Positions 1,228 through 61,798 of a DNA stretch of 64,000 nt are shown in pieces; position 1 is the stretch's first letter; each line of letters opens with the position of its first letter. The stretch spans positions 14,930,416 through 14,994,415 of the forward strand of contig CM026564.1 of NCBI GenBank assembly GCA_015143295.1, given 5' to 3'. The notes below the pieces were generated by a model that saw only the letters and a list, made by a program, of their open reading frames with translations, was not told the DNA's origin and ran no database searches. This DNA is from Tetracentron sinense (Eukaryota; Streptophyta; Magnoliopsida; Trochodendrales; Trochodendraceae). The position numbers and the translations under genes are program-made.

Positions 1228-1761
1228 TGTAGAGCCCCAAAACTTTTGACATTTATGCATGACCCCTCGTAGACCATTGTTCCTTTAAAGAGGATAATAA
1301 ATAAATAAGGAAGAAATTGGAAATTTTGAAAATTCAAAAATTTCCTTTTCGAAGTACGAACCCAACGCAATTGAATCGTCAAAATCCGACGAGCGAGTCA
1401 AAAGATATGGCCAAAACAGTCTGGATCTGCATGCAACCGATCGCTCGGTCCATAGAGCGATCGATCGGTCCCTAACCGATCAATCGGTAGCTATCGCACG
1501 GTCAGAATTTTGTATGGGGAAATTTTCCAGAGAGTGAGTTTTGACCGGTCGATCGGATCTCATAAACACCGATCGCTCGGTAGGCAACCGATCGATCGTC
1601 TAACCATCGATCGCTCGGTCCTCGTGTTTTGCAGAAATTTCATTAAGGGTGTTTTCATCTTTTGGGCGTTTTCACTCATACCTTAAAGGCTTTGCCGATC
1701 ATTTGAGGGTTCATACACAACCCTTAGAGTCTTTTGATCGCGATAGAGAGAAAGGAGAAGG
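1228..1761 (+). mobile_element. Outer Tekay 3' LTR, left part
   Basis: This begins TGTAGAGCCCC right after the purine tract. It holds the U3 region with a CCGATCGMTCGG palindrome array (about 1434-1622) and the conserved core near 1509-1536. It is interrupted at 1761 by the inner element. The last five bases, GAAGG, are one copy of the inner element's target duplication. The LTR resumes at 11578. Confidence 0.9.
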
Positions 1762-1973
1762 TGTAGCACCCCCGGACTTTTTCATCCTTAATGAATAGCA
1801 CCTTCGTAGCTAATTGGCCATTTTTGTAGTCTAATTAATTAAAGGAGAAATCGAAATTCCGAAACGTCAGAAATGTGCTTTTTCGAAAGACGAACCCACG
1901 CAATTGAATCGTCGAAATCCGACGAGCGAGTCAAAAGATATGGTCAAACAGTCCAGATGCTCCAGAGAGAAAC

Positions 1974-2158
1974 CGATCGCTCGGTTCAGTCATCGATCGA
2001 TCGGTCGCCATACCGTTCGATCGGTAGCTATCGCGCGGTCAGAAAGTTTGTATGGAGAAATTTTCCAGAGAGTGAAATTTCAACCGATCGCTCGGTTATG
2101 AAACCGATCGATCGGTAGGCAAACGATCGATCGGTCATTAACACCGATCGCTCGGTCC
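1974..2158 (+). promoter_or_regulatory. Palindrome cassette in U3 (5' LTR)
   Basis: Several copies of ACCGATCGATCGGT or ACCGATCGCTCGGT flank a unique spacer that contains TTTGTATGG and TTTTCCAGAGAG. The block lies about 70 bp upstream of the TATA box, so a role as an enhancer or repressor binding array is likely. The same block occurs in unrelated family-X LTRs. Confidence 0.75.
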
Positions 2159-2227
2159 TCGCGTTTTACAGAAATTTTCACTAAGGGCAGTTTTTTTTTT
2201 TCGGCATTCGGGTGTTATACCCTTTCT

Positions 2228-2235
2228 TATATAGG
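2228..2235 (+). promoter_or_regulatory. TATA box, 5' LTR
   Basis: TTATATAG lies downstream of the palindrome cassette and upstream of an ATG-free leader. The 3' LTR has the same sequence at 9713-9720. Confidence 0.7.
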
Positions 2236-2495
2236 ATTACCCGAGCCTTTTAGGGCTCATTCTCAACCCTTAGAAGATTTGGGAGATTAGAGAGAAAGGA
2301 GAAGGTTTTCTAAACCTAGGGTTTTCCATTTTGAAGAGAAATCTAAGGGTTTTGAAACCCTAGATCACCAACCTCAAGCTCGATTTCTTCAAGATTTCGG
2401 TTCAAGCATTCGTGGAGCTCGTGTGGGGCACTCTCCTCAAGCTAGGGCAGCAACTCACGTGCGTTTGGTGGAGGATTTCTTCCCCCATTGTCAAG

Positions 2496-3682
2496 GTCGG
2501 TACTTTTACTACCCTCCTAGTTATAGCCTCTCATTCTTCTTGTTTTTTCCTTATTCCCTTCTTGTTTTCCTCATAATATATATATACATTATGGATGGTG
2601 GTATGTATGGTAAATGGGATGGATGTTGGCGAATGGATGCGTGTGGATGATGAAATGAATGAATGGGGAAGGGCATTGTACTAATAATAAACATACAAGT
2701 GTGATGTGAGTATAAACCGCCTAGAAAAGCATGTTGTAGGGTTAATGAATAATGAATGTACCATGTTTGATGAAATGCCAAGGTGAATAAAATTGAATGA
2801 TAAATTCAGAAAATGCCTGTTAAGGTGTATGAAATTGCTAGGGTTATGATAGTGTGATTGTTCGCTTTCCCTAAATGATATCAATATTAAATTGCCCAAA
2901 ATCATTGATGTTATGTGTTACGAATTACTCAAATGCCATATTTAATTCCAAATGCAAGTATGCACACGACCTCACGAGCAAGCATACATGACTGATTTTA
3001 CCGAGGTGTTTCAAGAATGGGATTTAGAGGTGGGGCATATCGTACGATATGTTTTACCTCGCTTTTGGCAAGGACAAGACAATCATGCATTTTCATAAGA
3101 AGGGTCTCCCTTCCCTCACAAGTGCATACATCACATAAGAAGGGCCTCCCTTCCCTCGCAAGTACATCTCACAAGAACATCTCACAAGTGAAAGGACATG
3201 ACATGAGCATTTAGGAAGAAGGGTCTCCCTTCCCTCACAAGTAGTTTACTCTTCCAAGCATGATACAAGCAAGCCATGGACATGGCATGACAAGCATGGG
3301 CATTTAGGAAGAAGGGTCTCCCTTCCTCACAAGTAGTTTACTTTTCCAAGCAAGCATGACAAGACATGGCACGACATAGCATGATACGATAAGATAAGAC
3401 AAAACATGACAAGTTTTCAAGCAAGGAAATGGTGTTTTTCAGTCAAGTCAAGTGCACGGTGTTTTCAAGGTTATTGGCTTTTATGAATTCAGCATGATTA
3501 TATACTCCTTTACTTTATTGTCATGATATGAATTATTCCTGCTTTATATGCTATTAATTGTTTCCTTCTAACTTATAAGAATTATTCCTGCTTTATGTAT
3601 GCTATCTGTATACTATGACTGTTGGTTAGTATTTAGTACCCGCTGAGTATTCCATGCTCAGCCGTACTTCTTATGTCGGCAG
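2496..3682 (+). other. Candidate LTR intron (5' LTR)
   Basis: The donor context CAAG|GTCGGTAC and the acceptor TCGGCAG|G are conserved in every Tekay-like LTR here. The span is AT-rich, full of ATG triplets, and carries a variable repeat array built on GAAGGGTCTCCCTTCC (about 3095-3350). The bases between the TATA box and the donor contain no ATG. Splicing is inferred, not shown. Confidence 0.5.
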
Positions 3683-4094
3683 GTTCTGAGGGAGCAGCTG
3701 CTCATTTGATATCTGTGCTCCGAGTCCATTGGTTGGAGGAGGAGTACGTCGAGGAGCCTTTTGAGGAACCTCCAGTAGAGGTTACCTTTAGGTGGTTGTA
3801 GATTCTGAGTGGATTAGCTGTGGGTAGATGAGAGATATACTTTCATGTATTTTGGCGGGCCTGTCCGCACTTGTCTTTTGGTTACCTTTTGTATAACTTG
3901 GACCATATGTATATACTTAGAGGTTTGTTAGACTTCCGCTGTGTTTATAGTTATGTTTCCGCTCATAATGTCCTCTATTGTATATGCTCTGTGGGGTTTT
4001 GCAGGTTGGTTTGTCAAGCAAGTCATGTAAGTCATGATTGAGTCGTCCAAGATTCACTCTAACTCCCTAGGGTGGGTTTGGGTCGCGACAGAAG

Positions 4095-4106
4095 TGGTAT
4101 CAGAGC
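4095..4106 (+). promoter_or_regulatory. Primer-binding site, initiator tRNA-Met
   Basis: TGGTATCAGAGC lies four bases past the LTR end. It is complementary to the 3' end of plant initiator tRNA-Met, the usual primer of Tekay-type elements. Confidence 0.93.
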
Positions 4107-4450
4107 TTAGGCGTTTAGGTCTCTAGGGTCACTTAGAATCTTATACCACGGCTTGACAAGAGCATATGTTAGGAAACAAGTTAGGAAGGAAGTGAGTCGG
4201 GAACGAGTCTGGTTCCACGTTTAAGACTAAACTTTAGTCTTAGTCTAAAATGGTGCTTTAACAAGTACGGGTCCTAGGTACGCTAGAACACTAAAGTATA
4301 AGTATAATGTGATGAATACTCGGATGACTTGATGTGATGTATATTAGTATTATACAACTAATACAAATTGAATTATTGTGAAATGACATGGAAATAAACT
4401 GTGGTTTCGAGTGAGACTCATGTGGTGCTATTGTTCTCAGGACTTTAGTC

Positions 4451-5696
4451 ATGAGGCGGGGCACACGGGGTCGTGGACCACACACCAGAGCTTCATCTTC
4501 TTCCAGAGATGAGGATGAGCAGCCGGACCTCTCCCAGGTCTTAGGCTCTATTGCTGAGGACACTCGCCATCCTGACGGCTCGGCAAACTATACCGGCATC
4601 AGCGGCACCTACTCCACCGCCCGCAGCTCCGGTACATCGTACAGCTGGAGTTGAGGCATTCAGGAGATTGAGGCCTCCATCCTTCCACGGGAGTGTGGAC
4701 CCTCTTACTGCGGAGGCTTGGATCCTCCAGGTTGAGAAGATATTTGCGGTGCTCTCTCCTACAGAAGAAGAGAAAGTGGCATGGGCAGTTTTTATGCTAG
4801 AGGGCGAAGCCCACCATGGTGGTTGTCCGCATTGAGGACACGAGACTTGACCATGCAGGTCAACCTTGGACTTGAGAGGAGTTAAGGACACGTTCTATAA
4901 GAAGTATTTCCCGGTTGGAGCTCGGGAAAAGAAAGAGAGAGAATTCATCAACCTTGAGCAAGGTTCGATGTCTGTGGCCGCTTATGAGGCCAAGTTCTCG
5001 GAGCTATCACGCTTCGCGACACATATGATTGCCACCGAGGCAATGAAGGCGAGGAGGTTTGAGCAAGGGCTCAAGGATGTCATCATGGAGAAAGTGTCGG
5101 TCTTCAGGCACACCACTTACGCCGAAGTAGTGGATAAAGCCTTGTTGGTTGAGACCAATTCAGAGACTGTGTCCAAGAAGAGAGAATTGGCGAGAGGCCA
5201 ATCTAGTGGTTGGTACCTTTAGAGAGGCGGGCCCGGACTGGTCCTTATCAGTATACATGGCCAGCACCACAGATGAGGCCGACTTATGCGCCTCCAGCAC
5301 CCCGGCAGTACGTGCCACAGGCACCTCGACCTCAGGCTCTTCCGGCCCCACGGCCAGTTACCCCTCAGGCAGCGAGGTATACACCACCTCCGGTCCCTCC
5401 AGCCTACACATATGAGGTCTGCACTTCATGCGGTAAAAGGCATCCTGCAGGAGATTGCCGAAGAGCATCTGGGGGATGTTATCATTGCGGTCGCCAGGGC
5501 CACATGATCAGGGATTGCCCTAGCCGGCATTTACCAGGCCAGTCTCAGGATAGTAGGCCCCCGACACGCCCAGCAGGATCATACCAGGCGTCATCTCAGA
5601 CTACCCGGTCTACACCTCAGTCTCGCCAGGCGAACCAGGGGCGTGTATTTGCTTTGACAGAGGGTGATGCACTTGCATCTGATGATGTGGTGCAAG
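4451..5696 (+). pseudogene. gag: Gag of inner Tekay element, frameshifted
   Basis: This is the capsid/nucleocapsid gene that packages element RNA. The chosen ATG begins an arginine-rich start (MRRGTRGRG) and follows a 340-nt leader from the primer site. The capsid-like region lies at about 4640-5180, with EAWILQVEKIF and FYKKYFP motifs typical of plant gypsy gag. A proline-rich linker follows. Then come two zinc-knuckle motifs: a C-X2-C-X3-H-X4-C variant (CTSCGKRHPAGDC, about 5420) and a classic C-X2-C-X4-H-X4-C (CYHCGRQGHMIRDC, about 5480). Frame changes occur near 4555, 4830-4865 and 5200-5215, so the gene is split over several frames. All lie in the indel-rich left part of the window, so sequence error is possible. 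It runs on into pol through a putative intron. Confidence 0.88.
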
Positions 5697-5838
5697 GTAC
5701 GCGTTTGGAATTATTTTGTTATTCATGATTGATATGTTGCGTTTTATTCCTTGTGTACATACTTGGTATGATATATATATATACCTATGTGTATACTCTG
5801 TTGATGCATGGATTAACTCCACTAGTTAAAAATTTCAG
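5697..5838 (+). other. Putative spliceosomal intron at the gag-protease junction
   Basis: This 142-nt, AT-rich stretch starts GTACGC and ends AATTTCAG, with a branch-like TTAAC about 20-25 nt before the AG. Removing it joins CAA-G to GA-ACC, so the frame runs from ...DDVVQ-G straight into [16 protein letters not shown]. Unspliced, the gag frame stops at 5726-5728 and the pol frame has a stop at 5823-5825, so continuous translation needs removal of this segment. Introns are known between protease and RT in Ogre elements; this position differs. Confidence 0.75.
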
Positions 5839-8800
5839 GAACCCTACTAGTCAATGAGTATTTGGCTCGAGTATTGATTGATACCGGGTCTACTCATTCG
5901 TTTGTCTCGCCGAGTTTTTCAGAAGGTTTTTCTGCAGGGCCAAGTCAGCTAGAACCGGAGTTAGCCATTTCGACTCCTCTCGGCAAAACAGTATTGGCAG
6001 ATAAAGCGTATAGAAATAGTGTGGTCCAAGTTGGAAGCCACGAATTGGCGGTTGATCTCATCGTCCTTGGATTCCAGGACTTCGATGTTATATTGGGAAT
6101 GGATTGGTTAGCAGCACATCATGGGCATGTAGCTTGCTTTGAGAAAATGGTACTCTTCAAGCCAGTAGGAGGAAAACCATTCCACTTTCGCGGGTTGAAA
6201 AGCAGATCTATTGCTCGTTTTGCGGCATTGAGCTTAGCTAACCCCGAGGCAAAGGACTCATCAACTATTCCGGTTGTGAGTGAGTTCCTGGATGTATTTC
6301 CAGAGGAGTTGCCAGGATTGCCTCCAGACAGGGAGATTGAGTTTATGATCGAGCTTGCACCAGGCACAGCTCCTGTATTCAGAGCTCCATATAGAATGGC
6401 CCCTATTGAACTCAAGGAGTTAAAGACTCAGTTGGAGGAATTGCAAGGCCTTGGCTTCATTCGACCAAGTGTCTCACCATGGGGTGCCCCAGTGTTGTTT
6501 GTTAAGAAGAAAGATGGCTCGATGCGGATGTGTGTCGATTACCGGCAATTGAACAAAGTCACTATAAAGAATAGGTATCCCTTGCCTAGGATTGATGACT
6601 TGTTCGATCAGTTGAAGGGAGCGAGATTTTTCTCAAAGATAGATCTTCGATCAGGCTATCACCAGTTAAAGATTAAGGCGGAAGATGTTCCCAAAACTGC
6701 TTTCAGGACTCGGTATGGACACTACGAGTTCTTGGTGATGCCTTTTGGACTCACGAACGCGCCGGCAGCCTTTATGGATTTGATGAACCGGGTGTTCAGA
6801 CCATACCTAGATCGGTGCGTGATTGTATTTGTTGATGACATTTTGGTCTATTCCCAGAACCGGGAAGATCATATACGCGACCTTCGCCTTGCATTGGAAA
6901 TGTTAAGAGAGCACAAGCTATACGCCAAAATTAACAAGTGTGAGTTTTGGTTGGAAGAGGTGGCATTCCTAGGCCACGTTGTTTCTGCGGAGGGCATCTC
7001 TGTTGATCCGAAGAAGATAGAAGCTGTTATGAGTTGGGCGAGGCCCAAGAGTGTTACTGAGATACGCAGCTTTCTTGGGCTGGCAGGCTACTACAGGAGA
7101 TTTGTAGAGGGTTTCTCTAGCCTTGCAGCACCGCTTACTCACCTGACAAGGAAGAATGCGAAGTTTGTTTGGAGCGACAAGTGTGAGATCAGTTTCACGG
7201 AACTGAAGAAGAGGCTTACTACAGCTCCTGTCCTTACAGTACCATCTGGACCTCTTGGGTATGAGGTGTACAGTGATGCCTCACACGTCGGACTTGGATG
7301 TGTGCTTATGCAACACAAGAAAGTCATTGCCTATGCATCAAGGCAGTTGAAGGAGCATGAAAAGAACTATCCTACGCACGACTTGGAGCTTGCGGCGGTC
7401 GTGTTTGCACTTAAGATTTGGCGTCATTACCTTTATGGGGTGGAGTTCTATGTGTTCACTGATCACAAGAGTCTCAAGTATCTCTTTTCCCAAAAGGAGT
7501 TGAATCTAAGGCAAAGGCGTTGGATGGAATTTCTGAAGGACTATGATTGTACCATTCAATACCACCCGGGTAAAGCAAATGTAGTGGCTGATGCTTTGAG
7601 TAGAAGACCTCCGGGGTTATTAGCATGCATGTTAGTGCAGGAATGGAAGCTACTTGAAGACTTGGCAAATCTGGACATTAGTGTGAATGACTCTGTCCGT
7701 AGTCCTATCTTGGCAAATGTCACGGTTCGGCCATACATTATAGATTTGATCCAAGAATACCAAGCCACGGATGCTGAATTGTTGGCTTATCGGGACAAGG
7801 AAGTTGCTAAAGGTAGTGAGGACTTCTCTCTCACTAGCCGAGGTGCTATCACATTCAAGGGAAGGCTGTGTGTTCCTGCCAATGCAAATCTTCGGAGGGA
7901 GATTATGGATGAAGCCCACCGGGCAAAGTACACTGTGCATCCAGGGGGTACGAAGATGTACCGGAACCTCAAGAGTCACTTTTGGTGGCGGAATATGAAG
8001 AGGGAAGTTGCGGAATATGTAGCACGGTGCTTGGTATGCCAACAGGTGAAAGCAGAACACATGCGGCCCGCAGGTCTATTACAGTCCCTTCCGATTCCCG
8101 AGTGGAAATGGGAGAACATATCCATGGATTTCATAGTTGGCTTGCCAAAGACGGCAAGGGGTTCAGATGCGATATGGGTAGTAGTGGATCGTTTGACGAA
8201 GTCCGCTCACTTCTTGCCTTACCGAACTACTTTCAACTCTAGTCAATTAGCTGCTTTGTACATCAAGGAAGTGGTGAGGTTGCACGGAGTGCCTGTCAGT
8301 ATTGTGTCGGATCGGGATCCAAGATTCACATCACGATTCTGGAAAAGCTTTCAGGAAGCTATGGGTTCCCGACTCGATTTCAGCACCGCTTTTCATCCAC
8401 AGACGGATGGACAAACCGAGAGAGTGAACCAAGTCATTGAAGACATGCTTCGGGCTTGTATGATGGATTTCAGAGGCAGTTGGGAAGAGCACTTGCCTTT
8501 GGTTGAATTCGCCTACAATAACAGCTATCAGGCAAGTATCCAAATGGCACCATTTGAGGCCTTGTATGGGCGAAGTTGTAGGTCTCCTCTCTATTGGGAT
8601 GAGGTAGGAGAAAGGAAATTACTTGGTCCAGAATTGATTGAACAAACTGCAAACACAGTTAAGATCATTCGGGATCGATTGAAAGCCGCTCAAGATCGCC
8701 AGAAAAGTTATACGGACACGCGCCGTAGGGACTTGGAATTTCAAGTAGGCGATCAAGTTTTTGTGAAAGTATCTCCTAGCAAAGGAATCATGAGATTTGG

Positions 8801-9164
8801 CAAGCGAGGCAAGCTCAGTCCTCGCTATGTTGGACCGTTTGAGATTATCACGCGGGTTGGTGAAGTTGCTTATCGAGTAGCTCTCCCACCTCACATGGCC
8901 GCGGTTCACAACGTTTTCCACGTGTCTATGCTTCGGAAGTACATTGCGGACCCTTCACATGTACTAGAATTGGAACCGTTGGAAATTCGAGAAGATCTCA
9001 CGTTGGTTGAGAAGCCGATTCACATATTGGATCGGAGAGATCAAGTGCTTCGCAACAAGACAATCCCTTTGGTCCTCGTGCAATGGCAACATCATGCCCG
9101 AGAAGAAGCCACGTGGGAGCGTGAAGCCGAAGTCAAAGCAAAGTATCCCGAGTTGTTTGAATAG
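5839..9164 (+). CDS. pol: Tekay pol: protease, RT, RNase H, integrase, chromodomain
   Basis: This polyprotein copies the element RNA into DNA and inserts it. The reading frame is open from the putative acceptor to the stop; no ATG is needed if it is spliced to gag. The aspartic protease has DTG at 5880-5888. RT starts near 6380, with the FVDD catalytic box at 6828-6839. RNase H has YSDAS (Asp at 7275) and later the conserved TDHKSL and ADALSR blocks. Integrase has an HHCC zinc finger (His 7917 and 7938, Cys 8028 and 8037). The DDE triad is Asp 8127, Asp 8310 and Glu 8418. A C-terminal chromodomain at about 9009-9158 ([20 protein letters not shown]) is thought to steer integration to heterochromatin. 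No stop or frameshift breaks it. All catalytic residues I checked are present, so this copy's pol may be functional. Confidence 0.96.
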
Positions 9165-9219
9165 ACTTGTTCATATGGCTTATAATTTTGTTTTGATTTG
9201 ATGCATGTATGTATCGTCC

Positions 9220-9256
9220 AAATTTCGGGGACGAAATTTTTGTAAGGGGGGGAGAA
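9220..9256 (+). promoter_or_regulatory. Pre-LTR hairpin and polypurine tract
   Basis: A perfect 8-bp inverted repeat, AAATTTCG and CGAAATTT, flanks GGGA. It is followed by a run of A and G ending GGGGGGGAGAA directly at the 3' LTR. The purine run primes plus-strand synthesis. The hairpin is a common mark of this chromovirus group. Confidence 0.9.
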
Positions 9257-9468
9257 TGTAGCACCCCGGACTTTTCATCCTTAATGAATAGCACCTTCGT
9301 AGCTAATTGGCCATTTTTGTAGTCTAATTAATAAATAAAGGAGAAATCGAAAATTCCGAAACGTCAGAAATGTGCGTTTTCGAAAGACGAACCCAACGCA
9401 AGTTGAATCGTCGAAATCCGACGAGCGAGTCAAAAGATATGGTCAAAACAGTCCAGACATACAGAGAA

Positions 9469-9653
9469 CCGATCGCTCGGTCCAGTCAGCGATCGATCGG
9501 TCCATAACCGATCGATCGGTAGCTATCGCGCGGTCAGAAAGTTTGTATGGAGAAATTTTCCAGAGAGTGAAATTTCAACCGATCGCTCGGTTATGAAACC
9601 GATCGATCGGTAGGCAACCGATCGATCGGTCATTAACACCGATCGCTCGGTCC
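9469..9653 (+). promoter_or_regulatory. Palindrome cassette in U3 (3' LTR)
   Basis: Seven ACCGATCG[AC]TCGGT-type sites, some perfect 14-bp palindromes, are arranged three before and four after a unique spacer. The spacer core (9541-9569) includes GTATGGAGAAATTTTCCAG. The block lies about 60 bp upstream of the TATA box. Confidence 0.8.
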
Positions 9654-9712
9654 TCGCGTTTTACAGAATTTTCACTAAGGGCATTTTCGGCATTCGGGTG
9701 TTATACCCTTTC

Positions 9713-9720
9713 TTATATAG
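9713..9720 (+). promoter_or_regulatory. TATA box, 3' LTR
   Basis: TTATATAG sits at the same place as in the 5' LTR. The next 260 nt or so, up to the donor at 9980, contain no ATG. Confidence 0.7.
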
Positions 9721-10574
9721 GATTACCCGAGCCTTTAGGGCTCATTCTCAACCCTTAGAAGATTTGGGAGATTAGAGAGAAAGGAGAAGGTTTTCCTAAA
9801 CCTAGGGTTTTCCATTTTGAAGAGAAATCTAAGGGTTTTGAAACCCTAGATCAACCTCAAGCTCGATTTCTTCAAGATTTCGGTTCAAGCATTCGTGGAG
9901 CTCGTGTGGGGCACTCTCCTCAAGCTAGGGCAGCAACTCACGTGCGTTTGGTGGAGGATTTCTTCCCCCATTTGTCAAGGTCGGTACTTTTTACTACCCT
10001 CCTAGTTATAGCCTCTCATTTCCTTATTCCTTCTTGTTTTCCTTCATATATATATATATACATTATGAGATGGATGGTATGTATGGTAAATGGAGATGGA
10101 TGTTGGCGAATGGATGCCGTGTGGATGATGAAATGAATGAATGGGGAAGGGCATTGTACTAATAATAAACATACAAGTGTGATGTGAGTATAAACCGCCT
10201 AGAAAAGCATGTTGTAGGGTTAATGAATAATGAATGTACCATGTTTGATGAAATGCCAAGGTGAATAAAATGAATGATAAATTAAGAAAATGCATGTTTA
10301 AGGTGTATGAAAATTGCTAGGGTTATGATAGTGTGATTGTTCGCTTTCCCTAAATGATATCAATATTAAATTGCCCAAATCATTGATGTTATGTGTTACG
10401 AATTACTCAAATGCCATATTTAATTCCAAATGCAAGTATGCACACGACCTCACGAGCACGCATACATGACATGATTTTACCGAGGTTTTCAAGAATGGGA
10501 TTTAGAGGTGGGGCATATCGTACGATATGTTTTACCTCGCTTTTGGCAAGGACAAGACAATCATGCATTTTCAT

Positions 10575-10822
10575 AAGAAGGGTCTCCCTTCCCTCACAAG
10601 TGCATACATCACATAAGAAGGGCCTCCCTTCCCTCGCAAGTACATCTCACAAGAACATCTCACAAGTGAAAGGACATGACATGAGCATTTAGGAAGAAGG
10701 GTCTCCCTTCCCTCACAAGTAGTTTACTCTTCCAAGCATGATACAAGCAAGCATGACATGGCATGACAAGCATGGGCATTTAGGAAGAAGGGTCTCCCTT
10801 CCCTCACAAGTAGTTTACTTTT
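10575..10822 (+). repeat. LTR tandem array, GAAGGGTCTCCCTTCC type
   Basis: Four irregular copies of AAGAAGGG[TC]CTCCCTTCC(CTC) with CACAAGT are separated by variable spacers. GGGTCTCCC is close to an inverted repeat. The array occupies the same slot that holds unrelated arrays in other LTRs. Confidence 0.75.
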
Positions 10823-11120
10823 CCAAGCAAGCATGACAAGACATGGCACGACAAGCATGATACGATAAGATAAGACAAACATGACAAGTTTTCAAGCAAG
10901 GAAATGGTGTTTTTCAGTCAAGTCAAGTGCACGGTGTTTTCAAGGGTTTTATTGGCTTTTATGAATTCAAGCATGATTATATACTCCTTTACTTTATTGT
11001 CATGATATGAATTATTCCTGCTTTATATGCTATGAATTGTTTCCTTCTAACTTATAAGAATTATTCCTGCTTTATGTATGCTATCTGTATACTATGACTG
11101 TTGGTTAGTATTTAGTACCC

Positions 11121-11141
11121 GCTGAGTATTCCATGCTCAGC
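11121..11141 (+). promoter_or_regulatory. Conserved hairpin before acceptor
   Basis: GCTGAGTAT-TCC-ATGCTCAGC forms an 8-of-9 bp stem with a three-base loop. It lies about 20 nt upstream of the splice-acceptor-like site. The same stem is found at 3642, 12822, 37787 and 51844 (approximately) and reversed in the minus-strand LTRs. Confidence 0.75.
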
Positions 11142-11160
11142 CGTACTTCTTATGTCGGCA

Positions 11161-11271
11161 GGTTCTGAGGGAGCAGCTGCTCCATTTGATATCTGTGCTC
11201 CGAGTCCATGGGTGGAGGAGGAGTACGTCGAGGAGCCTTTTGAGGAACCTCCAGTAGAGGGTTACCTTTAG
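11161..11271 (+). CDS. LTR-borne acidic micro-ORF (subfamily A)
   Basis: This is a 36-codon open frame rich in Glu and Pro, with the core PWVEEEYVEEP, ending in TAG. It has no ATG. If intron 1 is removed, the frame joins an open stretch of about 40 codons in the leader exon, which also lacks ATG, so the start is unknown. The same frame and the same length (111 nt) are kept at 12862-12972, 16363-16473 (minus) and 51885-51995. A diverged 132-nt form occurs in subfamily B. Differences between subfamilies in the core fall mainly at third codon positions, which is why I list it as possibly coding. Function unknown. It could also be a conserved regulatory sequence that happens to stay open. Confidence 0.4.
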   Translation, partial: GSEGAAAPFDICAPSPWVEEEYVEEPFEEPPVEGYL

Positions 11272-11303
11272 GTGGTTGTAGATTCTGAGTGGATTAGCTG
11301 TGG

Positions 11304-11486
11304 GTGAGATGAGAGATATACTTTCATGTATTTTGGCGGGCCTGTCCGCACTTTCTTTTGGTTACCTTTTTGTATAAACTTGGACCATATGTATATACTT
11401 AGAGGTTTGTTAGACTTCCGCTGTGTTTTATAGTTATGTTTCCGCTATAATGTCCTCTATTGTATATGCTCTGTGGGGTTTTGCAG
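11304..11486 (+). other. Candidate LTR intron 2 (3' LTR)
   Basis: GG|GTGAGA follows the acidic frame, and GTTTTGCAG|G precedes the last 85 bp of the LTR. Both ends are kept in the other subfamily-A LTRs. Subfamily B has GTATGA and CATTACAG at the matching places. This is inference from splice-site likeness only. Confidence 0.35.
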
Positions 11487-11577
11487 GTTGGTTTGTCAAG
11501 CAAGTCATGTAAGTCATGATTGAGTCGTCCAAGATTCACTCTAACTCCTAGGGTGGGTTTTGGGTCGCGACAGAAGG

Positions 11578-13274
11578 TTTTCCAAAACCTAGGTTTCCAT
11601 TTTGGAGAGAAATCAAATGGTTTTGAAACCCTAGATCAACCTCAAGCCCGATTTCTTCAAGATTTCGGTTCAAGCATTCGTGGAGCTCGTGTTCCAAGCT
11701 AGGGCAGCAACTTACGTGCATTTTGGAAGGGGATTCCTTCCCTCTTTTGTCAAGGTCGGTACTCCTTACTACCCTCCTAGTTATATCTCCTCTTTTCCTT
11801 TATTTCTTCTTATTTTCCTTCACTTATATATGTGTTATGAGATTGGTGGTATGACTGGTGAATGGAGATGGATGTTGGCGAATGGATGCCGTGTGGATGA
11901 TGTGATGAATGAATGGGAAAGGGCATTGTACCAATAATGAACATACAAGTTTGAAGTGAGCATAACCCACCTAGAAAAGCATGATCTAGGTTTAAGTGAA
12001 TAATGAACATACCCCATGTTTGATGAAATGCCAAGGTGAACAAAATAAATGATAAATTAAGGGAACCCATGCTTAATTGCTCTTGAAATTTGTTAGGGTT
12101 CATGATACTGTGTTTCTTACATTTCTTAAAATGTGTAGATTATTACTCACTTAAATTGTTATATGCTATGCTTTGTGAATTACCCCAAATTGCCATATTA
12201 AATTCCAAATGCAAGTATGCACACGATCTCACGAGCACGCATGAAATGACGTGATTTACCGATGTTTTAAGTATGGGACGTAGAGGTGGGGCATATCCTA
12301 AGATATGTTTCACTTCTCTTTTGACAAGGGTAAGACAATCATGCATTGCATAGGGAAGGGTCTCCCATCCCATCGCATGGCATGCATAGCATCGCAGACA
12401 CGCATAGCATAGCATGGCATGACACACATAGCATAGCTTCACATGACTCGCATAACTCTGCATGGCATGACACGCACGGATGCTAATTGCGACGGGCTAT
12501 GAACGGCAACTAGGCATACCCATCTGCATATAGGGTACTAGTTACGACGGACTATGAACGGCAACTAGGCATGTGAACATGTTTAAATTATGAAAATGCA
12601 AGCATGACACGATTAAAAAGTTCCCAATCACGCAAGGGGTATTTCAAGTCAAGTGCACGATGTTTTCAAGGGTTTTATCAGTCTTTCTGAATGCAAGCAT
12701 GAATATAAATTGCTTTACTTCCTTGTATGATATAAATTGTTCCTGTTCTATATATGCAACTTGCTTCCTACTTTATGTATGCTATCTGTATACTATGACT
12801 GTTGGTTAGTATTTAGTACTCGCTGAGTATTCCATGCTCAGCCGTACTTCTTATGTCGGCAGGTTCTGAGGGAGCTGCTGCTCCATTTGATGTTTGTGCT
12901 CCTGGTCCATGGGTGGAGGAGGAGTACGTCGAGGAGCCTTTTGAGGAACCTCCCGTAGAGGGTTATCAGTAGGTGGTGTTAGATTCTGAGTGGATTAGCT
13001 GTGGGTGAGCATGAGTGATTATATCCATGTATTTTGGCGGGCATGTCCGCACTTTCTTTGTTTTGATTTCTTTGTATTAAAACTTGGACCATGTGTATAT
13101 ACTTAGAGGTTCGTTAGACTTCCGCTGTGTCTTAGAGCTATGCTTCCGCTGTTATCCTCTATTGTATATGCTCTGTGGGTGTTTTGCAGGTGATTTGTCA
13201 AGCAAGTTATGTAAGTCATGATTTAGTCGTCCACGATTCACTCTAACTCCTAGGGTGGGTTTTTGGTCGCGACA
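11578..13274 (+). mobile_element. Outer Tekay 3' LTR, right part
   Basis: This resumes after the second GAAGG copy with the leader exon, then candidate intron (donor 11755, acceptor 12862), hairpin (12822-12842) and acidic frame, and ends GGTCGCGACA. With 1228-1761 it makes a 2.2-kb LTR. The intron slot here holds a CATGGCATGACACGCATAGC-like array and a CTATGAACGGCAACTAGGC repeat (about 12340-12600) instead of the inner element's array. Confidence 0.92.
12862..12972 (+). CDS. LTR-borne acidic micro-ORF (outer LTR copy)
   Basis: This has the same 36-codon length and frame as the copy at 11161-11271, with a few changes (Ile to Val, Ser to Gly, Leu to Gln near the ends). The core PWVEEEYVEEPFEEPPVEGY is intact. 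It has no ATG and lies immediately after a TCGGCAG acceptor-like site. Coding status is uncertain. Confidence 0.4.
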   Translation, partial: GSEGAAAPFDVCAPGPWVEEEYVEEPFEEPPVEGYQ

Positions 13275-14103
13275 ACTTCAATACCATGATCACACACGAT
13301 CGATCTCCTTCCACGAAGGCTCCGGATCATACACCGGACACACACACAAAGTGTAGGGTTGTGAATCAATTTAGAAAGCTTCAAACCCTAGAGGGATCTC
13401 ATATAGATCTGAGATCATACAATGCAAGATCAAAAGAATAGATCTATACTTACATTCTCTAGGATGATTGAAAAAGGAGGGATCACTAAAGATCTATGAG
13501 GAACAATGGAAAAAGCCCTAGAAGGGTTTCTCAGACCTGTACTCTTTCAAAAATAAACAAAGATACGAATTAGGTCTCCAAAAAGTTGTTTATATAGGGT
13601 TTAGAAAAGAGTCCAGAAAAAATAAAATTATGTTTACGAGGACCGATCGATCGGTGCTTATGACCGATCGCTCGGTCCAAAACCGATCGATTGCTACTTT
13701 CACCGAGAGATCGGTTAAAAATAGTCTCTCTGGAAAAATACCCCATACAAAGTTTTTGACCAGTCGATAGCCACCGATCGCTCGGTAGGCCACCGATCGA
13801 TCGGTTGAGACAGAATTTCAGCCTAAACATTTTTCTTTTGTTTTTGTTTGATTCAAATTAGATCAAACCTCTTTGGTAGGCTTAAAACTATTCTCCTAGG
13901 TATGTTTAGAGTTATCTAAGTCAAATCCAACCTAGGTAGGGGTCTCTAAGTCCATTACCTGTCTAGACCCGGAGTAGAAGCTTTTTCTTCAATATCTTCA
14001 GGCTTCTGGAAACTTTAACTCTTCCGACAAGTTGAACAAGACACAACACTCATGACCTATCTAATGATCACGGAATTTTCCGACACCTATTTCTGGATTT
14101 ACA
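13275..14103 (-). mobile_element. Family-X LTR, part split by the outer Tekay element
   Basis: This matches the right two-thirds of the solo LTR at 53186-54471 and of 15420-19144. Reading on the minus strand, it starts TGTAAATCC, has a TATA box (complement of TTTATATA at 13589-13596) and runs into leader sequence. The remaining part would lie left of the window, beyond the outer Tekay element. The first bases (ACTTC) are the likely target duplication of that element. The family is not recognised. The LTR style fits a Ty1/copia or similar element, but no coding region is present. Confidence 0.8.
13640..13806 (-). promoter_or_regulatory. Palindrome cassette in family-X LTR
   Basis: ACCGATCGATCGGT and ACCGATCGCTCGGT sites flank a spacer whose reverse complement has GGCTATCGACTGGTCA, TTTGTATGGGG and TTTCCAGAGAG. 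It lies about 45 bp upstream of this LTR's TATA box. The cassette is clearly homologous to that of the Tekay LTRs, although the rest of the two LTRs shows no likeness. Confidence 0.8.
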
Positions 14104-15419
14104 GGTTCATACTGGAATTCGGTGCAGAGGTTCGAAAAGGGTTTAGCTGAGGTTAGGTTCAAACCAGGATTCGTGTAGAGGTCCAACTAGAGTTTAGATG
14201 GGTTAGGTTCGAACTGGGATTCAAGCAAAGGTTCAACTAGGGTTTAGTTGGGGTTAAGTTCGAATCGGGATTCGGGCAGAGCTTCGATTGTGGTTTAGTT
14301 GGGGTTAGGTTACTGCATTCAGGTAGAGGTTCAGCTAGGATTTAGTTGGGGTTAGGTTTGAATCAGAATTCGGGGTAGAGGTTCGACTAGGGTTTAACCG
14401 AAATTTGGTCCGACTAGGATTTGGGCAAAGGTTTGCTTTGAGTTTTGTTGGGGTAAGGTTCGAACCGGGATTCGAGCAGAGGTTTAGGTAGAGTTTAAAT
14501 CGGGTTAGGTTCGAACTAGGATTTGGGAAGTGGATCAACTTCCGTTTTGCTGGGATTAGTTTCAAATTGTGATTTTTGTGGAGGTTTTTCTAGAATTTAG
14601 TTAGGGTTAGGTTAAAATTGGGATTTAGGCAAAGATTTGACCAGGCTTTGCTGAGGTTAGGTTCAAACTGGGATTCGGGAAGAGGTTCGACTAGCATTTA
14701 GTTAGGGTAAGGTTTGAGCCTGGATTCGGACAGAAGTCTGACTATGGTTTTGTTGGGGTTAGGTTCAAATAAGGATTTAGGTAGACGTTCTGCTAGGATT
14801 TAGTTGGGGTTACGTTTGAATCGGAACTCGAGGTAGAGGTTCCAATAGGGTTTAGCTGGGGTTAGATTCGAACCAGGATTTGGATAATGGTTCTGCAAGG
14901 ATTTAGTTATGGTTAGGTTTGAACTGGGATTCGGGTGGAGGTTCAACCAGGGTTTAGGATGGATTAAGTTCATACCATGATTCAGGCAAAGGCTCGGCTT
15001 GAGTTTAGCTGGGGTTAAGTTCAAACTGGGATTCGGGCAAAGGTTCGACTAGGGTTTAGTTGAGGGTTAGGTTCGAACTAGGATTCAGGCAGAGGTTTGA
15101 CTAGGATTTAGTTGGGGCTAGGTTTGTACTTGGATTTAGAAAGAGATTCGAACCGGGATTCAGGCAAAGGTTCAGCTTGAGTTTATCTGGGGTTAGTTTC
15201 CAACAGGGATTTGAGCACAGGGTTAACCAAGGTTTAGCAGGTGCTAGGTTCGAAACGGGATTTAGGCAGATGTTCAGCTAGGGGTAGTGGGAGTTGTGTT
15301 TGAAATGGGATTTGAGCAAAGGGTTACCAGGGTTTAGCTGGGGTTAGGTCGAACCGGGATTCAGGCATAGGTTCCACAAGGGTTTAGCGGGTGTTAGCTT
15401 TGAAATAGGATTTGGGTAA
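14104..15419 (+). repeat. 51-bp satellite, block 1
   Basis: This block has about 25 diverged monomers with the consensus order GGGTTTAGCTGGGGTTAGG, TTCGAACCGGGATTCGGGC, AGAGGTTCGACTA. It ends in GGTAA, one copy of the target duplication of the next insert. Short minus-strand ORFs arise only because 51 is divisible by 3. Confidence 0.95.
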
Positions 15420-16362: not shown

Positions 16363-16473
16363 CTACTGATAACCCTCTACGGGAGGTTCCTCCAAAGGCT
16401 CCTCGACGTACTCCTCCTCCACCCATGGACCAGGAGCACAAACATCAAATGGAGCAGCAGCTCCCTCAGAACC
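16363..16473 (-). CDS. LTR-borne acidic micro-ORF (minus solo LTR)
   Basis: This is an open 36-codon frame on the minus strand, the same length as in the other subfamily-A LTRs and with the PWVEEEYVEEP core. It lacks ATG and follows the TCGGCAG acceptor-like site. Coding status is uncertain; frame retention in a solo LTR with no other genes is the notable point. Confidence 0.4.
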   Translation of the reverse strand, partial: GSEGAAAPFDVCAPGPWVEEEYVEEPLEEPPVEGYQ

Positions 16474-16821
16474 TGCCGACATAAGAAGTACGGCTGAGCA
16501 TGGAATACTCAGCGGGTACTAAATACTAACCAACAGTTATAGCAAGAGATAGCAATGCATACCCAGGAAACAATATAGATATATATGAATCAGGAACAGT
16601 TAATATCATACAAAGAAATAAGGAAATTCATAATCATGCTTGCAGTTCATGAAAAGCCGATAAAATCCTTGAAAAACACCATGCACTTGACTTGACTTAA
16701 AATACCCTTCGCGTAATTGGGAACTTATTTACCGTGTCATGCTTGTATCATGCGTGCCATGTCATGCTATGCGTGTCATGCGTGTATCATGCTTGCTTAT
16801 TCAGAATTTAAACATGTTCAC

Positions 16822-19864: not shown

Positions 19865-20039
19865 TGTGGGCAGTGAAATTTTCACTCTCCATTGCCTAGG
19901 TGTGTGTACAATGGTACACACCTAATCTCAGTCTCTCGGAGAGACGGTTGGGTTCACGCGTGCCAGTGGCATGCGCAGTACCTTTAGCTATCAACATTAA
20001 ATGCTGATGGTAGGCACCATGCTACCCAGCTAAGCAACA

Positions 20040-20600
20040 GCATAGTTGATCCGTGAGGATAAACCTCATGGATCCACCTTAAATAATAGCGCCCAAATGG
20101 GCTAATACATACCCCGTCCATGAGGGTTAAAACCTCACGGATCCAATATTAAGTGTTGCCCTCCGAGAGGCTGACACTTATTCATCAGTGAGGATAAAAA
20201 TCCCACGGATCCAACTTTGGTGTTAGCCTCCGAGAGACTAACACGTGTCATCCGTGACACATATTCATCTGTGAGGATAAAATCCCATGGATCCAGCTGA
20301 GGTGTTGGCCTTTATTAGGCTAACACGTGTCATGTCTGTGAGGACAAAACCTCACGGACCCAACAAGAAACATATCTAGTGTCAGTTTCCAAGAGACTGA
20401 CACGTGTTCGACCGTGAGGACCAAAACTTCACGGATCCGACTCAGAGTGTTAGCCTCCAAAAGGTTGACACCTGTCTCATCTGTGAGGATACAACCCCCA
20501 TAGATCATATTTAGTGCCAGCCACCATAAGGCTGACACGTGTCCAGTCCTTGAAGATAAATCCTCACGGATCAAGTCTCTTGTCCTGGATTTAACCCAGA
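20040..20600 (+). repeat. Hairpin repeats in Tat U3
   Basis: About six units of 75-90 bp each contain GTGAGGATAAAACCTCACGG (stem GTGAGG/CCTCAC), then ATCCAAC, then a GCCTCCGAGAGGC-type stem and CTGACACGTGTC. Almost every stretch can fold on itself. The 3' LTR has the matching series at 38655-39215. Confidence 0.8.
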
Positions 20601-20616
20601 CCACAGGCACCACTTA

Positions 20617-20880
20617 GTGATCCGCGGTTGAGACCTATGGTCTCACCTAGTGATCCGTGGTTAAGACCTATGGTCTCACCTAGTGATCCGTGGTTGAGGC
20701 CTATGGTCTCACCTAGTGATCCGTGGTTGAGACCTATGGTCTCACTTAGTGATCCGTGGTTGAGACCTATGGTCTCACGTAGTGATCCATGGTTGAGGCC
20801 TATGGTCTCACCTTGCGATCTGTGGTTGAGACTTGTGGTCTCACCTGGTGATCTGTGATTGAGACCTATGGTCTCACCAT
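20617..20880 (+). repeat. 33-bp tandem repeat, 8 units
   Basis: The unit has GTGATCCGTGGT followed by TGAGACC-TAT-GGTCTCA, a perfect 7-bp stem, then CCTA. Because 33 is a multiple of 3 it yields a spurious 11-residue repeating ORF. The 3' LTR copy has 7 units. Confidence 0.92.
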
Positions 20881-21748
20881 GATCCGTTGACTGGCCTAGG
20901 TCAGTCTGTCCCAGCTGACAGTCAGTATTTGACTGTCATGGGGGGCAGAGAATCCTTAATAAAAAGGATTCTCTGTCAGGTTGTGGGAAATCCCAAGATA
21001 AGGATCTCCCCTTTTAAAATCTCATGAGATGCCACGTGGCAGCCCATGATTTTTTTTAGGATTAGGACTATGTCCTTTATCCTAGGAAAGGATGTGATTA
21101 CCATCCTACTTTTCGAGAAGTACTAGGATTCCCCCCTGAAAGAGGAAACTGGTACAAGATTCCTCAAAAGAAGAGGATTCTCTTGAGCTTAAGGACTCTC
21201 CCAGATAAGGGAAAGCCGTAAGCTGGCATCCTCTAAGAGGAGAGCCCCTTTTGACTTTCCTAAAAGAAGGGAGTCAAAGAGGGAGTCTCAAAAAAGACTC
21301 TCTCAAACCCATAAAAAGGGGTGTTTTCTCAGAAGGACAACGGAAGAAGAGAAAAAGACATACACAAAAGAGATAGAAAAAGAAAGAGAAAAACTCTCTT
21401 CCCCTTCAAGCAACACAAGCAACTGAAGAAGAAGACTCCCTCGATATGGAGAATATAAGGTGAGCCCTTAAACATGGCCACCATTCTTTTTCTTTTCTTA
21501 AAAAGACCTCAATGAGGCACTTGTAACGCCTACATGGGAATTGGGCAACCCCATTGAATAAATAAAAATAAGTTTATTCAATATGTTCTTCTTTAATTCT
21601 TCATCTTAATCAGAGGTTCTTCCCTGATACAGGGAAGGTAACTTAACAGTCTGAGTTTACTCAGATTGGAAGGGTAGTCCCCATAATAAACTCCATACAA
21701 CAATGGAGAAAATTTGATAAAAAAAGAATTTTTCTCCCACAAATTAAA

Positions 21749-37530: not shown

Positions 37531-37825
37531 ACAAGATGGAGGTTTACAAGATGATGATCATGCATTCATGCATGCACGCATACATGATTTCTACGAGGCA
37601 TACCGGGACATGACAGGGGTTTTCAAGCATGAGTTTTATCGGCGTTTTTGCATTCGTGTACGCACGTCAGGATGCTTGTATTGTGTCATGCCCTATACTG
37701 TTTCTTTGTGATGTTTCTATTACTGCTTGTATGATATTACTATTGTGTGTTTTATTATTGTTATGGTCTGCTAGTAGCTTGTACTCGCTGAGTATTCCAT
37801 GCTCAGCCGTACTTTCATGTCTGCA

Positions 37826-37957
37826 GGTACTGAGGGAGCCCTCGACCTGGAGCCTTGGGTCGAGGAAGAGTATATAGAGGAGAGAGAGCCGGCTATTCCA
37901 TTACAGTCTCAGGCGGACCGAGACCTCGATGCGTGGCCATACCTCAACTACTGTTGA
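37826..37957 (+). CDS. LTR-borne acidic micro-ORF (subfamily B)
   Basis: This is a 43-codon frame ending TGA, right after a TCTGCAG acceptor-like site, with the core EPWVEEEYIEE followed by REPAIPLQSQADRDLDAWPY. It has no ATG. When joined over the candidate intron, the frame is open for about 70 further codons in the leader exon. It shares the core with subfamily A although the flanking DNA differs. Within the ten-codon core the two subfamilies differ at six bases, five of them third positions. Function unknown. Confidence 0.42.
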   Translation, partial: GTEGALDLEPWVEEEYIEEREPAIPLQSQADRDLDAWPYLNYC

Positions 37958-41915: not shown

Positions 41916-42047
41916 TCAACAGTAGTCGAGGTATGGCCACACATCAAGGTCTCGGTCCGCTTGAGACTGCAGTGGGATAGATGACTCTCTCTCCTCGATA
42001 TACTCTTCCTCGACCCAAGGCTCTGGGTCGAGGGCTCCCTCGGTACC
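41916..42047 (-). CDS. LTR-borne acidic micro-ORF (truncated LTR)
   Basis: This is a 43-codon frame on the minus strand with the same length and stop as 37826-37957 and the core EPWVEEEYIEE intact. A few substitutions occur (Asn to Asp, Ala to Val, Pro-Ala to Ser-Ser). It is open even though the LTR has lost its promoter. Confidence 0.4.
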   Translation of the reverse strand, partial: GTEGALDPEPWVEEEYIEERESSIPLQSQADRDLDVWPYLDYC

Positions 42048-42354
42048 TGCCGACATGAAAGTACGGCTGAGCATAGAATACTCAGCGAGTACAAGCTACT
42101 AGCTATCCATAACAATAATAAACATGCAAGGAGTAGTACAATACCAATCATCAATTCCAGGCAATAGTAAAATCATAGAATTAAAAAATATTAAACATGG
42201 AGCAATATTATCATCTTGATGTGCATGAATGTAAAAACGCCGATAAAACTCATGCTTGAAAACCCATTTCCATGTCTCGGTATGCATTGTAGAAATCATG
42301 TATGCGTGCATGCATGAATGTCTTGTCATCATCTTGTAACCTTGCATCTTGTAA

Positions 42355-48470: not shown

Positions 48471-49557
48471 TGACTTACTTAGTAATTCATCTTGTTAGAA
48501 ACAATCAATGTATACTAAAATACAGATATAAAAATTTCTTCTATTAAACCATCAACTGAAATTCAAACTCCATAATGTAACTGAAAAGTAATAAATCCTA
48601 GTCATCTATCCTGACCATAAACATAAAAGACTGACTAACATATGTTCCTATAAAATTAATTAAGGTCTTCTAAATTTAAATAACCAACAAGTAACTTGAA
48701 TAATAGGGCCATAGATCAAGGTCCCTTTCTACCTCGGGATAGTCACCTTCGGGTTTCTCGATTTAATCCTCTTCTTCCTAAGGTCCGGGCGCACAAATGT
48801 CAAAACCTGAACCTGCCGACAATAAAAGTCATTGGCTGAGTAACGAGTTACTCCGCGTATATAACAGATCATAATAAACCATATAATGAATAATACTTTG
48901 CTTGAATTTCATCAGTTTACATATAAATTCAGAGTGCAGAAAATAAACATGTACATTATGTTAGTTTCTTTCTTTCTTTCTTTTCTTACTTTCTTACTTT
49001 TCTTTCTTTTCTTATTTTTCGTATTTCATACATTATGATCTCATCAATACACATTCACATGCATTTGTACTAAATTAAAATATCACTTTACCTTATAAGG
49101 AAATGGGTTACTATACTTTACTTTATTGAGATACCACCCTTCGTACATTATCCGGTGGTGCACAATACAAACATGCATTATCACTTTCGTGTATCTTTCT
49201 TTGTTACTTTTCTTACTTTACTTTTGGTCTCACTTATATCTTATCATTGTCTTTAATTCTTTCTTCTTACTTTTACAGATTTTTCATTCATGAGTGCACA
49301 ATGATACCTCTTGTTTAAATTATACCTAAGATTAACCGTAAAGGGCCATAGAACATCTCACCATAGTGTCACATACCACTATGTTAACCAGGCTTAGGTA
49401 TTCTTGACTTTCATCAGAGGTTTGTTTACCCAATGGTATATCATGTATTAAGAAGTATAAAATGAAGGGAATCCGGATAAAAATTTATGCGGAAACTGGA
49501 TCCCCTAGATCTTAACACCATAGAAAACATCAAAATTATTTAAGAGTTTTAGTCATA
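48471..49557 (-). mobile_element. LTR Z (diverged gypsy type), left part
   Basis: On the minus strand this holds a TTGTCGGCAGG acceptor-like site (about 48815) and a decayed acidic frame that reads FDICAPGP-stop-EEED, so it is a distant relative of the Tekay LTRs. A T/C-rich microsatellite lies at 48960-49020. The continuation is at 55679-57019. The inner boundary with the next nested element could lie anywhere from about 49440 on. Confidence 0.65.
48960..49020 (+). repeat. TTTC-rich microsatellite
   Basis: TTTCTTTCTTTCTTTC grades into TTTCTTACTTTC runs. It is simple repeat with no further role visible. Confidence 0.9.
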
Positions 49558-51560: not shown

Positions 51561-51884
51561 CACAAGTTACATGATCACAAGCAAGCATGCATGACATGAC
51601 ACGACATACAAGAATCAAGCAAGATAGGCAAGACAAGCTTTCAAGTACGAAAAGATATTTCAAGTCAAGTCAAGTGCACGATGTTTTCAAGAGGATTTAT
51701 CGGCTTTCTACGAATTACAAGCATGATTATAAACTGCTTTACTTCCTTGTATGATATGAATTGTTTCCGTTTGACATATATGAATTGCTCCTGATCATGT
51801 ATTGCCATTTCTATGCTATAATTGTTGGTTAGTATTTAGTACCCGCTGAGTATTCCATGCTCAGCCGTACTTCTTATGTCGGCA

Positions 51885-51995
51885 GGTTCTGAGGGAGTTG
51901 CTGCTCCATTTGATGTTTGTGCTCCTGGTCCATGGGTGGAAGAGGAGTACGTCGAGGAGCCTTTGGAGGAACCTCCCGTAGAGGGTTATCAGTAG
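51885..51995 (+). CDS. LTR-borne acidic micro-ORF (25-bp-array LTR)
   Basis: This is a 36-codon frame of the same length as in the other subfamily-A LTRs, with core PWVEEEYVEEPLEEPPVEGY intact. It follows a TCGGCAG acceptor-like site and lacks ATG. It is preserved even though this LTR's promoter array has been replaced. Confidence 0.42.
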   Translation, partial: GSEGVAAPFDVCAPGPWVEEEYVEEPLEEPPVEGYQ

Positions 51996-61689: not shown

Positions 61690-61798
61690 GTTTCGGAATT
61701 CACATCCTCGTAAGGGTGCGGCAAGCCATCCGACTTACCGCAACTGATGACCGCCTTCTTGTGCCGATGGCATCATCCCTCACCTTATCTTAGTACTT
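61690..61798. other. 109-bp foreign insert in satellite
   Basis: This is a single segment with no likeness to the satellite and higher GC (GTTTCGGAATTCACATCC ... CTTATCTTAGTACTT). It interrupts one monomer exactly between GGGAT and TCGAGCAG, so nothing of the monomer is lost. No target duplication or terminal repeat is visible. Its origin is unknown. Confidence 0.8.

Follow-up and report, generated by a model that had tools for sequence, protein, structure and literature searches.

Extra open reading frames (aORFs or eORFs) are known from plant LTR retrotransposons, among them the 5′ aORF of Tekay, and the accessible parts of the papers place them in the internal region of the element (PMC7264820, PMC11728184). 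As far as their accessible text goes, the surveys of such frames considered at least 250 codons (PMC6317226) or used a minimum length setting of 300 (PMC11728184). The frame described here resembles them, because it is coding capacity beyond gag-pol in a plant Ty3/gypsy element and is conserved across copies (PMC7264820, PMC11728184). However, aORFs and eORFs lie between the LTRs, whereas the present exon of 36-43 codons lies wholly within the LTR and has no ATG of its own in some families. Counted from ATG, the frame has 39 codons in LTR subfamily A and 46 codons in subfamily B, below the 250 codons mentioned above (PMC6317226). LTRs are annotated as non-coding, and the surveys, in their accessible parts, look between LTRs with long length limits, so that an LTR coding exon escapes them. 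In addition, the words "open reading" do not occur in the accessible text of two papers on LTR structure (PMC11656987, PMC3601003). No LTR-borne coding exon of a plant element was met in the literature searched, which covered few subscription papers, and priority is not established by this search.

According to the accessible part of a review, plant LTR elements are generally without introns, with Ogre and EVADE as exceptions (PMC12786077), and spliced isoforms are also described for sunflower copia elements (PMC7730604). In the Ty1/copia elements EVADE (EVD) and BARE1, alternative splicing gives a short Gag-only mRNA, shGAG, and Gag exceeds Pol (PMC12786077). The Gag isoform proposed below is similar to shGAG in using alternative splicing for a Gag-only product (PMC12786077), and a real donor at the gag end was found here too (locus L017 and 45 junction places, in A elements only). 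However, EVADE is a copia element whose isoform has a frameshift and a stop soon after the junction, whereas here the proposed terminal exon is part of the LTR and selection acts on its amino acids. Meanwhile, CERV of Cer1, a Ty3/gypsy element of C. elegans, is made from a spliced mRNA in which exons read in the polyprotein frame are linked to an ORF further downstream; Gag and the N-terminal half of CERV have peptide sequence in common, and CERV is needed for the export of unspliced RNA (PMC10309623). CERV is like our model in its spliced retroelement mRNA and its N-terminal likeness to Gag, but the accessible text does not place a coding exon in the LTR (PMC10309623). The comparison is one of described features.

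In retroviruses, LTRs can code for protein. Sag of MMTV and the lentiviral nef, which overlaps the 3′ LTR, are expressed from the 3′ copy, as proposed for the present exon. However, they belong to animal retroviruses, encode other proteins and lie in U3. Ogre is a plant Ty3/gypsy element of the Tat lineage, different from that of the Tekay/Del-like element considered here, and we know of no LTR coding exon in it. Ogre has a functional intron. It is named in the accessible part of the review (PMC12786077).

The LTR frame and its host element

The window is the whole stretch of DNA that was analysed, 64,000 nucleotides from Tetracentron sinense. Positions 1762-11572 hold an LTR retrotransposon, element 1. 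Its LTRs are 2.3 kb long and 96% alike, its gag ATG is at 4451 and its pol frame ends at 9164. Pfam found a reverse transcriptase (RVT_1, E 6.5e-37), and a candidate chromodomain at the integrase C-terminus scored just below the cut-off (Chromo, 24.3 bits against 25.1; E 2.9e-5). Judged by the likeness of its pol and LTR ends to known elements, the host of the frame is a Tekay/Del-like Ty3/gypsy element. The LTRs, the frame copies and the adjacent hairpin are as follows.

1762..4090, + strand: 5′ LTR of element 1, starting TGTAGCACCCC and ending TCGCGACA (self-alignment 1754-4094 against 9251-11576, 96%)
9257..11572, + strand: 3′ LTR of element 1
11162..11271, + strand: LTR coding exon, copy A1 in the 3′ LTR of element 1, including the stop; the ATG-led frame is 11152-11271
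3673..3792, + strand: frame copy in the 5′ LTR of element 1, broken by three single-base indels, with indels in the flanks too
12853..12972, + strand: copy A2
16363..16482, - strand: copy A3
51876..51995, + strand: copy A4
37817..37957, + strand: copy B1, 46 codons, without the FD[VI]CAPG block, C-terminal ADRDLDAWPYLNYC
41916..42056, - strand: copy B2
48676..48822, - strand: copy Z, decayed, with two stops and TTG in place of ATG
11121..11141, + strand: hairpin GCTGAGTATTCCATGCTCAGC just 5′ of the acceptor, present in A and B; the hairpin of the window Z copy has another sequence

Within the LTR, the frame lies some 300 nt before the 3′ end. A sequence-only reading of the window had reported open frames with PWVEEEY[VI]EE in six LTRs, and all six are there; it had overlooked the seventh copy, in the 5′ LTR at 3673. 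Its account of the ten-codon core, in which A and B1 differ at six bases, five of them third positions, with a single Val/Ile change, was reproduced, and so were the two internal stops of the decayed Z form near 48,800 on the minus strand. However, the stops, which it had described as identical within each subfamily, vary among genomic copies: the A copies in loci L018 and L023 end one codon earlier, and the B copy in L057 is without the usual stop.

In copy Z, a single frame combines an A-like block (FDICAPGP) with a B-like one (ERDLDLWPY). Since DLDxWPY is common to B and Z and FD[VI]CAPGP is common to A and Z, both blocks were probably present in the ancestral frame. The 5′ LTR of element 1 (1762-4090) has many single-base indels relative to the 3′ LTR, within and outside the frame, which may reflect uneven decay or a local assembly error. 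Copy A2 (window 11572-13274) starts at the 3′ LTR end of element 1 and is missing the first ~530 LTR bases. A second hairpin 3′ of the frame (3854-3868 in the 5′ LTR, and at the same place in other copies) covaries: its arms are GGCGGGC/GTCCGC in A and GGTGGG/CCACC in B, and A3 has GGTGGG and a G-U pair.

To estimate abundance, a 30-mer of the A frame was searched against the 1.16 Gb genome at up to 3 mismatches, and 11,014 matches were found. The reversed control gave 0 matches at the same threshold, so that chance is excluded. A protein search of the genome with the B peptide gave 27,339 first-look candidates, and all 150 that were scored matched. The LTR coding exon is thus present in many thousands of copies. 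Meanwhile, no match was found in viral or prokaryote collections, the B peptide had none in the protein database, the two frame peptides had none in Pfam, and Rfam gave none in the window.

Loci were fetched by exact A 30-mers within the frame (L001-L028), by B peptide match (L029-L058) and by the FDICAPGP word (L059-L063, read as 201-nt stretches). All fetched copies were therefore chosen via words or peptides of the frame, and frame conservation inside these sets, being partly due to choice, was not counted. The selection tests rest on genome-wide counts, on frame parts outside the picking words, or on other parts of the element.

Protein-level selection on the frame

From the codon patterns below, we are nearly certain that the LTR frame is a real protein-coding sequence under protein-level selection. 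PWVEEEY with free third positions and valine as GTA/GTT had 3,430 exact matches in the genome, and the reversed control had none. Typical A copies use GTG and typical B copies use GTC. Many different synonymous spellings were seen among the first 100 matches listed. Equally degenerate A-based patterns gave 43 matches when freed at first codon positions (leading N ignored) and 21 when freed at second positions; these two controls are tied to the third-position letters of A and so draw on A-like copies, while every family is covered by the third-position pattern, and the result is a contrast of pattern counts whose ratio is not a dN/dS.

The FDICAPGP word as spelled in Z had 1,063 genome matches at up to 3 mismatches, against 0 for the reversed control. 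By hand count, 9 of the 100 matches listed were exact. Another 52 of these 100 had one mismatch, at the third position in 28 (all synonymous) and at the first or second in 24. The other 39 had two mismatches, confined to third positions in 34, which include three repeated forms, GCCCCAGGACCT (19), GCACCCGGCCCT (6) and TTC...GCTCCC (5).

Very strong constraint was found between L060 and L061, two loci with intact Z-type frames (GLGSGSGFDICAPGPWEEEEY[IL]EEPEGDYPEEERDLDRWPYY-stop). Over the frame they differ by 11 synonymous and 1 nonsynonymous changes (dS 0.60, dN 0.010, dN/dS ~0.02); the pair was chosen via the FDICAPGP word, which biases that part to likeness, and 9 of the 12 changes lie outside the word. 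Third-position shares were compared with one third by binomial test, with relatedness ignored in every p value. The share was 11/12 for L060 against L061 (p 5e-5), 10/13 for A against L060 over 18 codons (p 0.0016), and 9/14 for two A types (p 0.017; dN 0.081, dS 0.41). Between the two A types, dN/dS is about 0.2. In addition, B1 and B2 gave 9/15 (7 synonymous and 5 nonsynonymous codons), and B1 and the B copy of L027 gave 2/6. The close comparisons (A types; B1 against B2) indicate weaker constraint. A against the decayed L062 gave 7/13 (5 synonymous and 5 nonsynonymous codons), and in-frame stops are present in L059, L062 and L063.

A purine-rich splice enhancer or an RNA structure might also read as acidic codons by accident. 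GAGGAGGAG is enhancer-like, and there are hairpins on both sides of the frame. However, third positions are free and amino acids constant, and this includes CAPGP and DLDxWPY, which are outside the purine run. Such a non-coding origin was rejected by the codon-position patterns, and we give it almost no credence.

Predicted splice signals of the LTR and the leader

The sequence-only reading had noted that no ATG is visible. This is wrong for A and B, in which an in-frame ATGTCGGCAGGT lies 9 nt upstream of the start that it gave (at 11152 in the first copy). Its start, 11161, is a GGT codon split by the predicted splice junction (CAG|GT), which falls after base 11161. What is kept 5′ of the frame is not the ATG but GTCGGCAG|GT, which contains GGCAG|GT. 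CAG|GT is kept in A, in B, in window Z and in four of the five short loci (L059-L062), and it is mutated in L063. A splice acceptor at the frame start is likely.

The ATG is of importance for the possibility that the frame is a free-standing micro-protein that starts at its own ATGTCGGCAGGT, either within an LTR transcript or as an upstream ORF, and acts as a regulatory peptide or in translation control of gag. The in-frame ATG is present in all seven A and B window copies and in L062; among the fetched loci, almost every A or B copy has it, with none in L033. However, it is not a conserved feature of the family: it is missing in four of the five short loci, and TTG stands there in L059, L060, L061, L063 and window Z, despite the very strong protein constraint between L060 and L061. 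These two intact Z-type copies have an in-frame stop a few codons above the frame and no ATG between that stop and the frame, which disfavours a free-standing peptide. In addition, the ATG lies 5′ of the CAG|GT acceptor and would be spliced away. We therefore regard a free-standing micro-protein as unlikely. The earlier proposal of a peptide from a spliced LTR transcript holds for protein-level selection and the link with splicing, but its free-standing regulatory micro-peptide is not the best reading.

The other predicted features of the LTR transcript are as follows.

9713..9979, + strand: predicted promoter and non-coding LTR exon 1, with TTATATAGG at 9713, CATTCTCAACCC at 9743 and donor TCAAG|GT
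End at 2495, + strand: LTR exon 1 in the 5′ LTR
9980..11161, + strand: predicted LTR intron, ending ...TCGGCAG
4095..4106, + strand: primer binding site TGGTATCAGAGC, within the predicted leader intron 2496-4440

A block common to A and B in the first third of the LTR ends in TCAAG|GT[CT][GA]GTAC in six of the seven copies that were aligned, B2 being the exception with CTAAG. Of ~88 hairpin-bearing copies, 38 contained the exact donor word at a suitable distance; the others may have lost the donor or come from a cut locus. Thirty-four of the 38 were used for ATG counts, and four were dropped as too near the locus end or identical. There were 8 ATGs across these 34 copies in the 220 nt before the donor, with none in 26 of the 34, against a mean of 41.8 and a minimum of 29 in 100 dinucleotide shuffles; an earlier unfiltered count gave the same picture. 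The first 220 nt of the LTR intron contained 504 ATGs across the 34 copies, and this richness also speaks against the free-standing micro-protein. By its composition, LTR exon 1 matches the profile of a scanned, non-coding first exon, and being ATG-poor it is unlikely to be an AUG source.

Translation might also begin at a non-AUG codon in LTR exon 1 after the LTR intron is spliced, and exons 1 and 2 together are open for 40-79 codons in many copies. However, no frame in phase with the coding exon is maintained across the exon 1 block, the CAAGCTAGGGCAGCA motif occurs in all three phases, and the open stretches upstream of the junction are as short as 6 and 17 codons. Such a start is very improbable. 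LTR exon 1 as a coding exon was rejected, since no in-phase frame is conserved through it.

Meanwhile, the search for leaders with a primer binding site gave 29, two of which coincide in position, and 11 were aligned. T[TC]CTCAG|GA and [AG]TCATGAG before gag are kept in all five A leaders and in five of the six B leaders; the sixth B leader, L050, is divergent and departs in the second half of the leader. The predicted leader intron (window 2496-4440) runs from the LTR donor to the pre-gag acceptor and has the primer binding site inside it, which would make spliced and genomic RNA separable. Its splicing would join TCAAG of LTR exon 1 to GACTTTAGTCATG and would leave the gag ATG as the first or nearly the first AUG. 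It would also remove the primer binding site, and for this reason the spliced RNA could be a message and not a genome.

A predicted alternative last exon of Gag

The gag exon and the intron that follows it are as follows.

4441..5696, + strand: gag exon, with acceptor TTCTCAG|GA at 4440, ATG at 4451 and donor GTGCAAG|GTACGC after 5696
5697..5838, + strand: gag-PR intron of 142 nt, precisely absent in L017

In element 1 itself, the gag frame is broken, with no open frame of 150 codons before 5207. L017 reads GTGCAAG|GAACCC at the junction, with exactly the 142 nt missing, and it retains the leader and the primer binding site. The spliced gag-PR junction word was found at 45 genomic places at up to 3 mismatches (control 0), which are not all independent, some being 7-8 kb apart or sharing variants, and of which only L017 was viewed in context. 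Furthermore, the donor GT is kept in 17 of 18 fetched gag ends, and the eighteenth is precisely spliced (A elements only). Since intron-less retrocopies exist in the genome, the gag donor and the PR acceptor are used in vivo and their products were reverse transcribed. The spliced gag-PR copies preserve the trace of a splicing step that preceded reverse transcription.

One base (G) is left over at the gag donor, and it is completed to G|GA at the PR acceptor and to G|GT at the LTR acceptor. Because donor and LTR acceptor leave the same phase, the joined gag-LTR frame reads through, and in an A element it gives ...ASDDVVQ-G-SEGAAAPFDVCAPGPWVEEEYVEEPFEEPPVEGYQ-stop. Phase agreement by itself has a chance of 1 in 3. 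As the splice acceptor and the reading phase fit, the frame would be the terminal exon of a longer protein, with Gag as the most probable candidate. Thus, we proposed that the frame in the 3′ LTR is an alternative 3′-terminal exon of Gag, a prediction that we hold to be more likely than not. The exon would begin right after the 3′ splice site GGCAG|GT and end at its own stop. Splicing from the gag donor CAAG|GT to the protease acceptor 142 nt further on would lead to Gag-Pol, and splicing from the same donor to the LTR acceptor would lead to Gag with an acidic tail of 36-43 residues and no Pol, with the predicted junction ...DDVVQ-G-SEG...CAPGPWVEEEYVEE.... Our grounds are the coding-level selection, the conserved splice-like signals, the matching phase in A and the in vivo use of the gag donor, and from these we infer use of the LTR acceptor, its joining to the gag donor, and a role of the tail. 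The upstream in-frame ATG of A and B, which a terminal exon of Gag does not need, counts against the model.

The gag-LTR exon junction had 0 genomic matches, and the junction of LTR exon 1 with the LTR coding exon also had 0 (A-type word, up to 1 mismatch). Genomic copies of gag-LTR RNAs are not expected, because such RNAs are without the polypurine tract and the start of R. The zero is nevertheless no support for a Gag tail either.

The same coding and acceptor evidence would fit a terminal exon joined to an upstream exon other than gag, such as one ending at another pol donor, a small internal exon or host exons. However, the gag donor is the only one for which use was demonstrated, and it is already in the right phase. 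A rough, weak plant donor matrix was run over nine elements, from the primer binding site up to a point 1 kb short of the 3′ LTR hairpin, and the gag donor of L012 was the only GT with a score above 6; the matrix misses the gag donor in the other eight elements and scores the LTR donors at 1.7 and 4.8. A partner other than gag is improbable to us.

For the terminal exon of Gag, the simplest putative role is a Gag-only isoform that provides excess Gag, perhaps with a regulatory tail. A bolder one, by analogy with CERV, is that the tail may regulate RNA export. If the link to Gag holds, it explains how such a plant Ty3/gypsy element can produce Gag in excess and keep its mRNA apart from genomic RNA. 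In its widest form, our proposal is that the LTRs of a whole plant chromovirus lineage carry a coding exon, twice per element, of which only the 3′ LTR copy serves as the last exon of Gag; that the choice between the protease and LTR acceptors would set the Gag:Gag-Pol ratio and give the selected acidic tail; and that splicing extends to the leader (LTR exon 1 to gag), which would leave translated RNA without and genomic RNA with the primer binding site, as in complex retroviruses. We consider this wide form to be about as likely as not. The finding further suggests that genes nearby could receive a coding terminal exon from solo LTRs.

In addition, a divergent 51-bp satellite (AGGTTCGAACCGGGATTCGGGCAGAGG...), parts of which are GGTTTAG-like, forms large arrays in the window, at 14103-15414, 40323-41623, 43581-48159 and 57240-63982. 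The stretches 19865-20887 and 38479-39470 are 18.6 kb apart, 94% alike in part, and have 33-bp tandem repeats. RNase H- and integrase-like frames lie between them at 30-32 kb, and we take the whole to be perhaps a Tat-type element.
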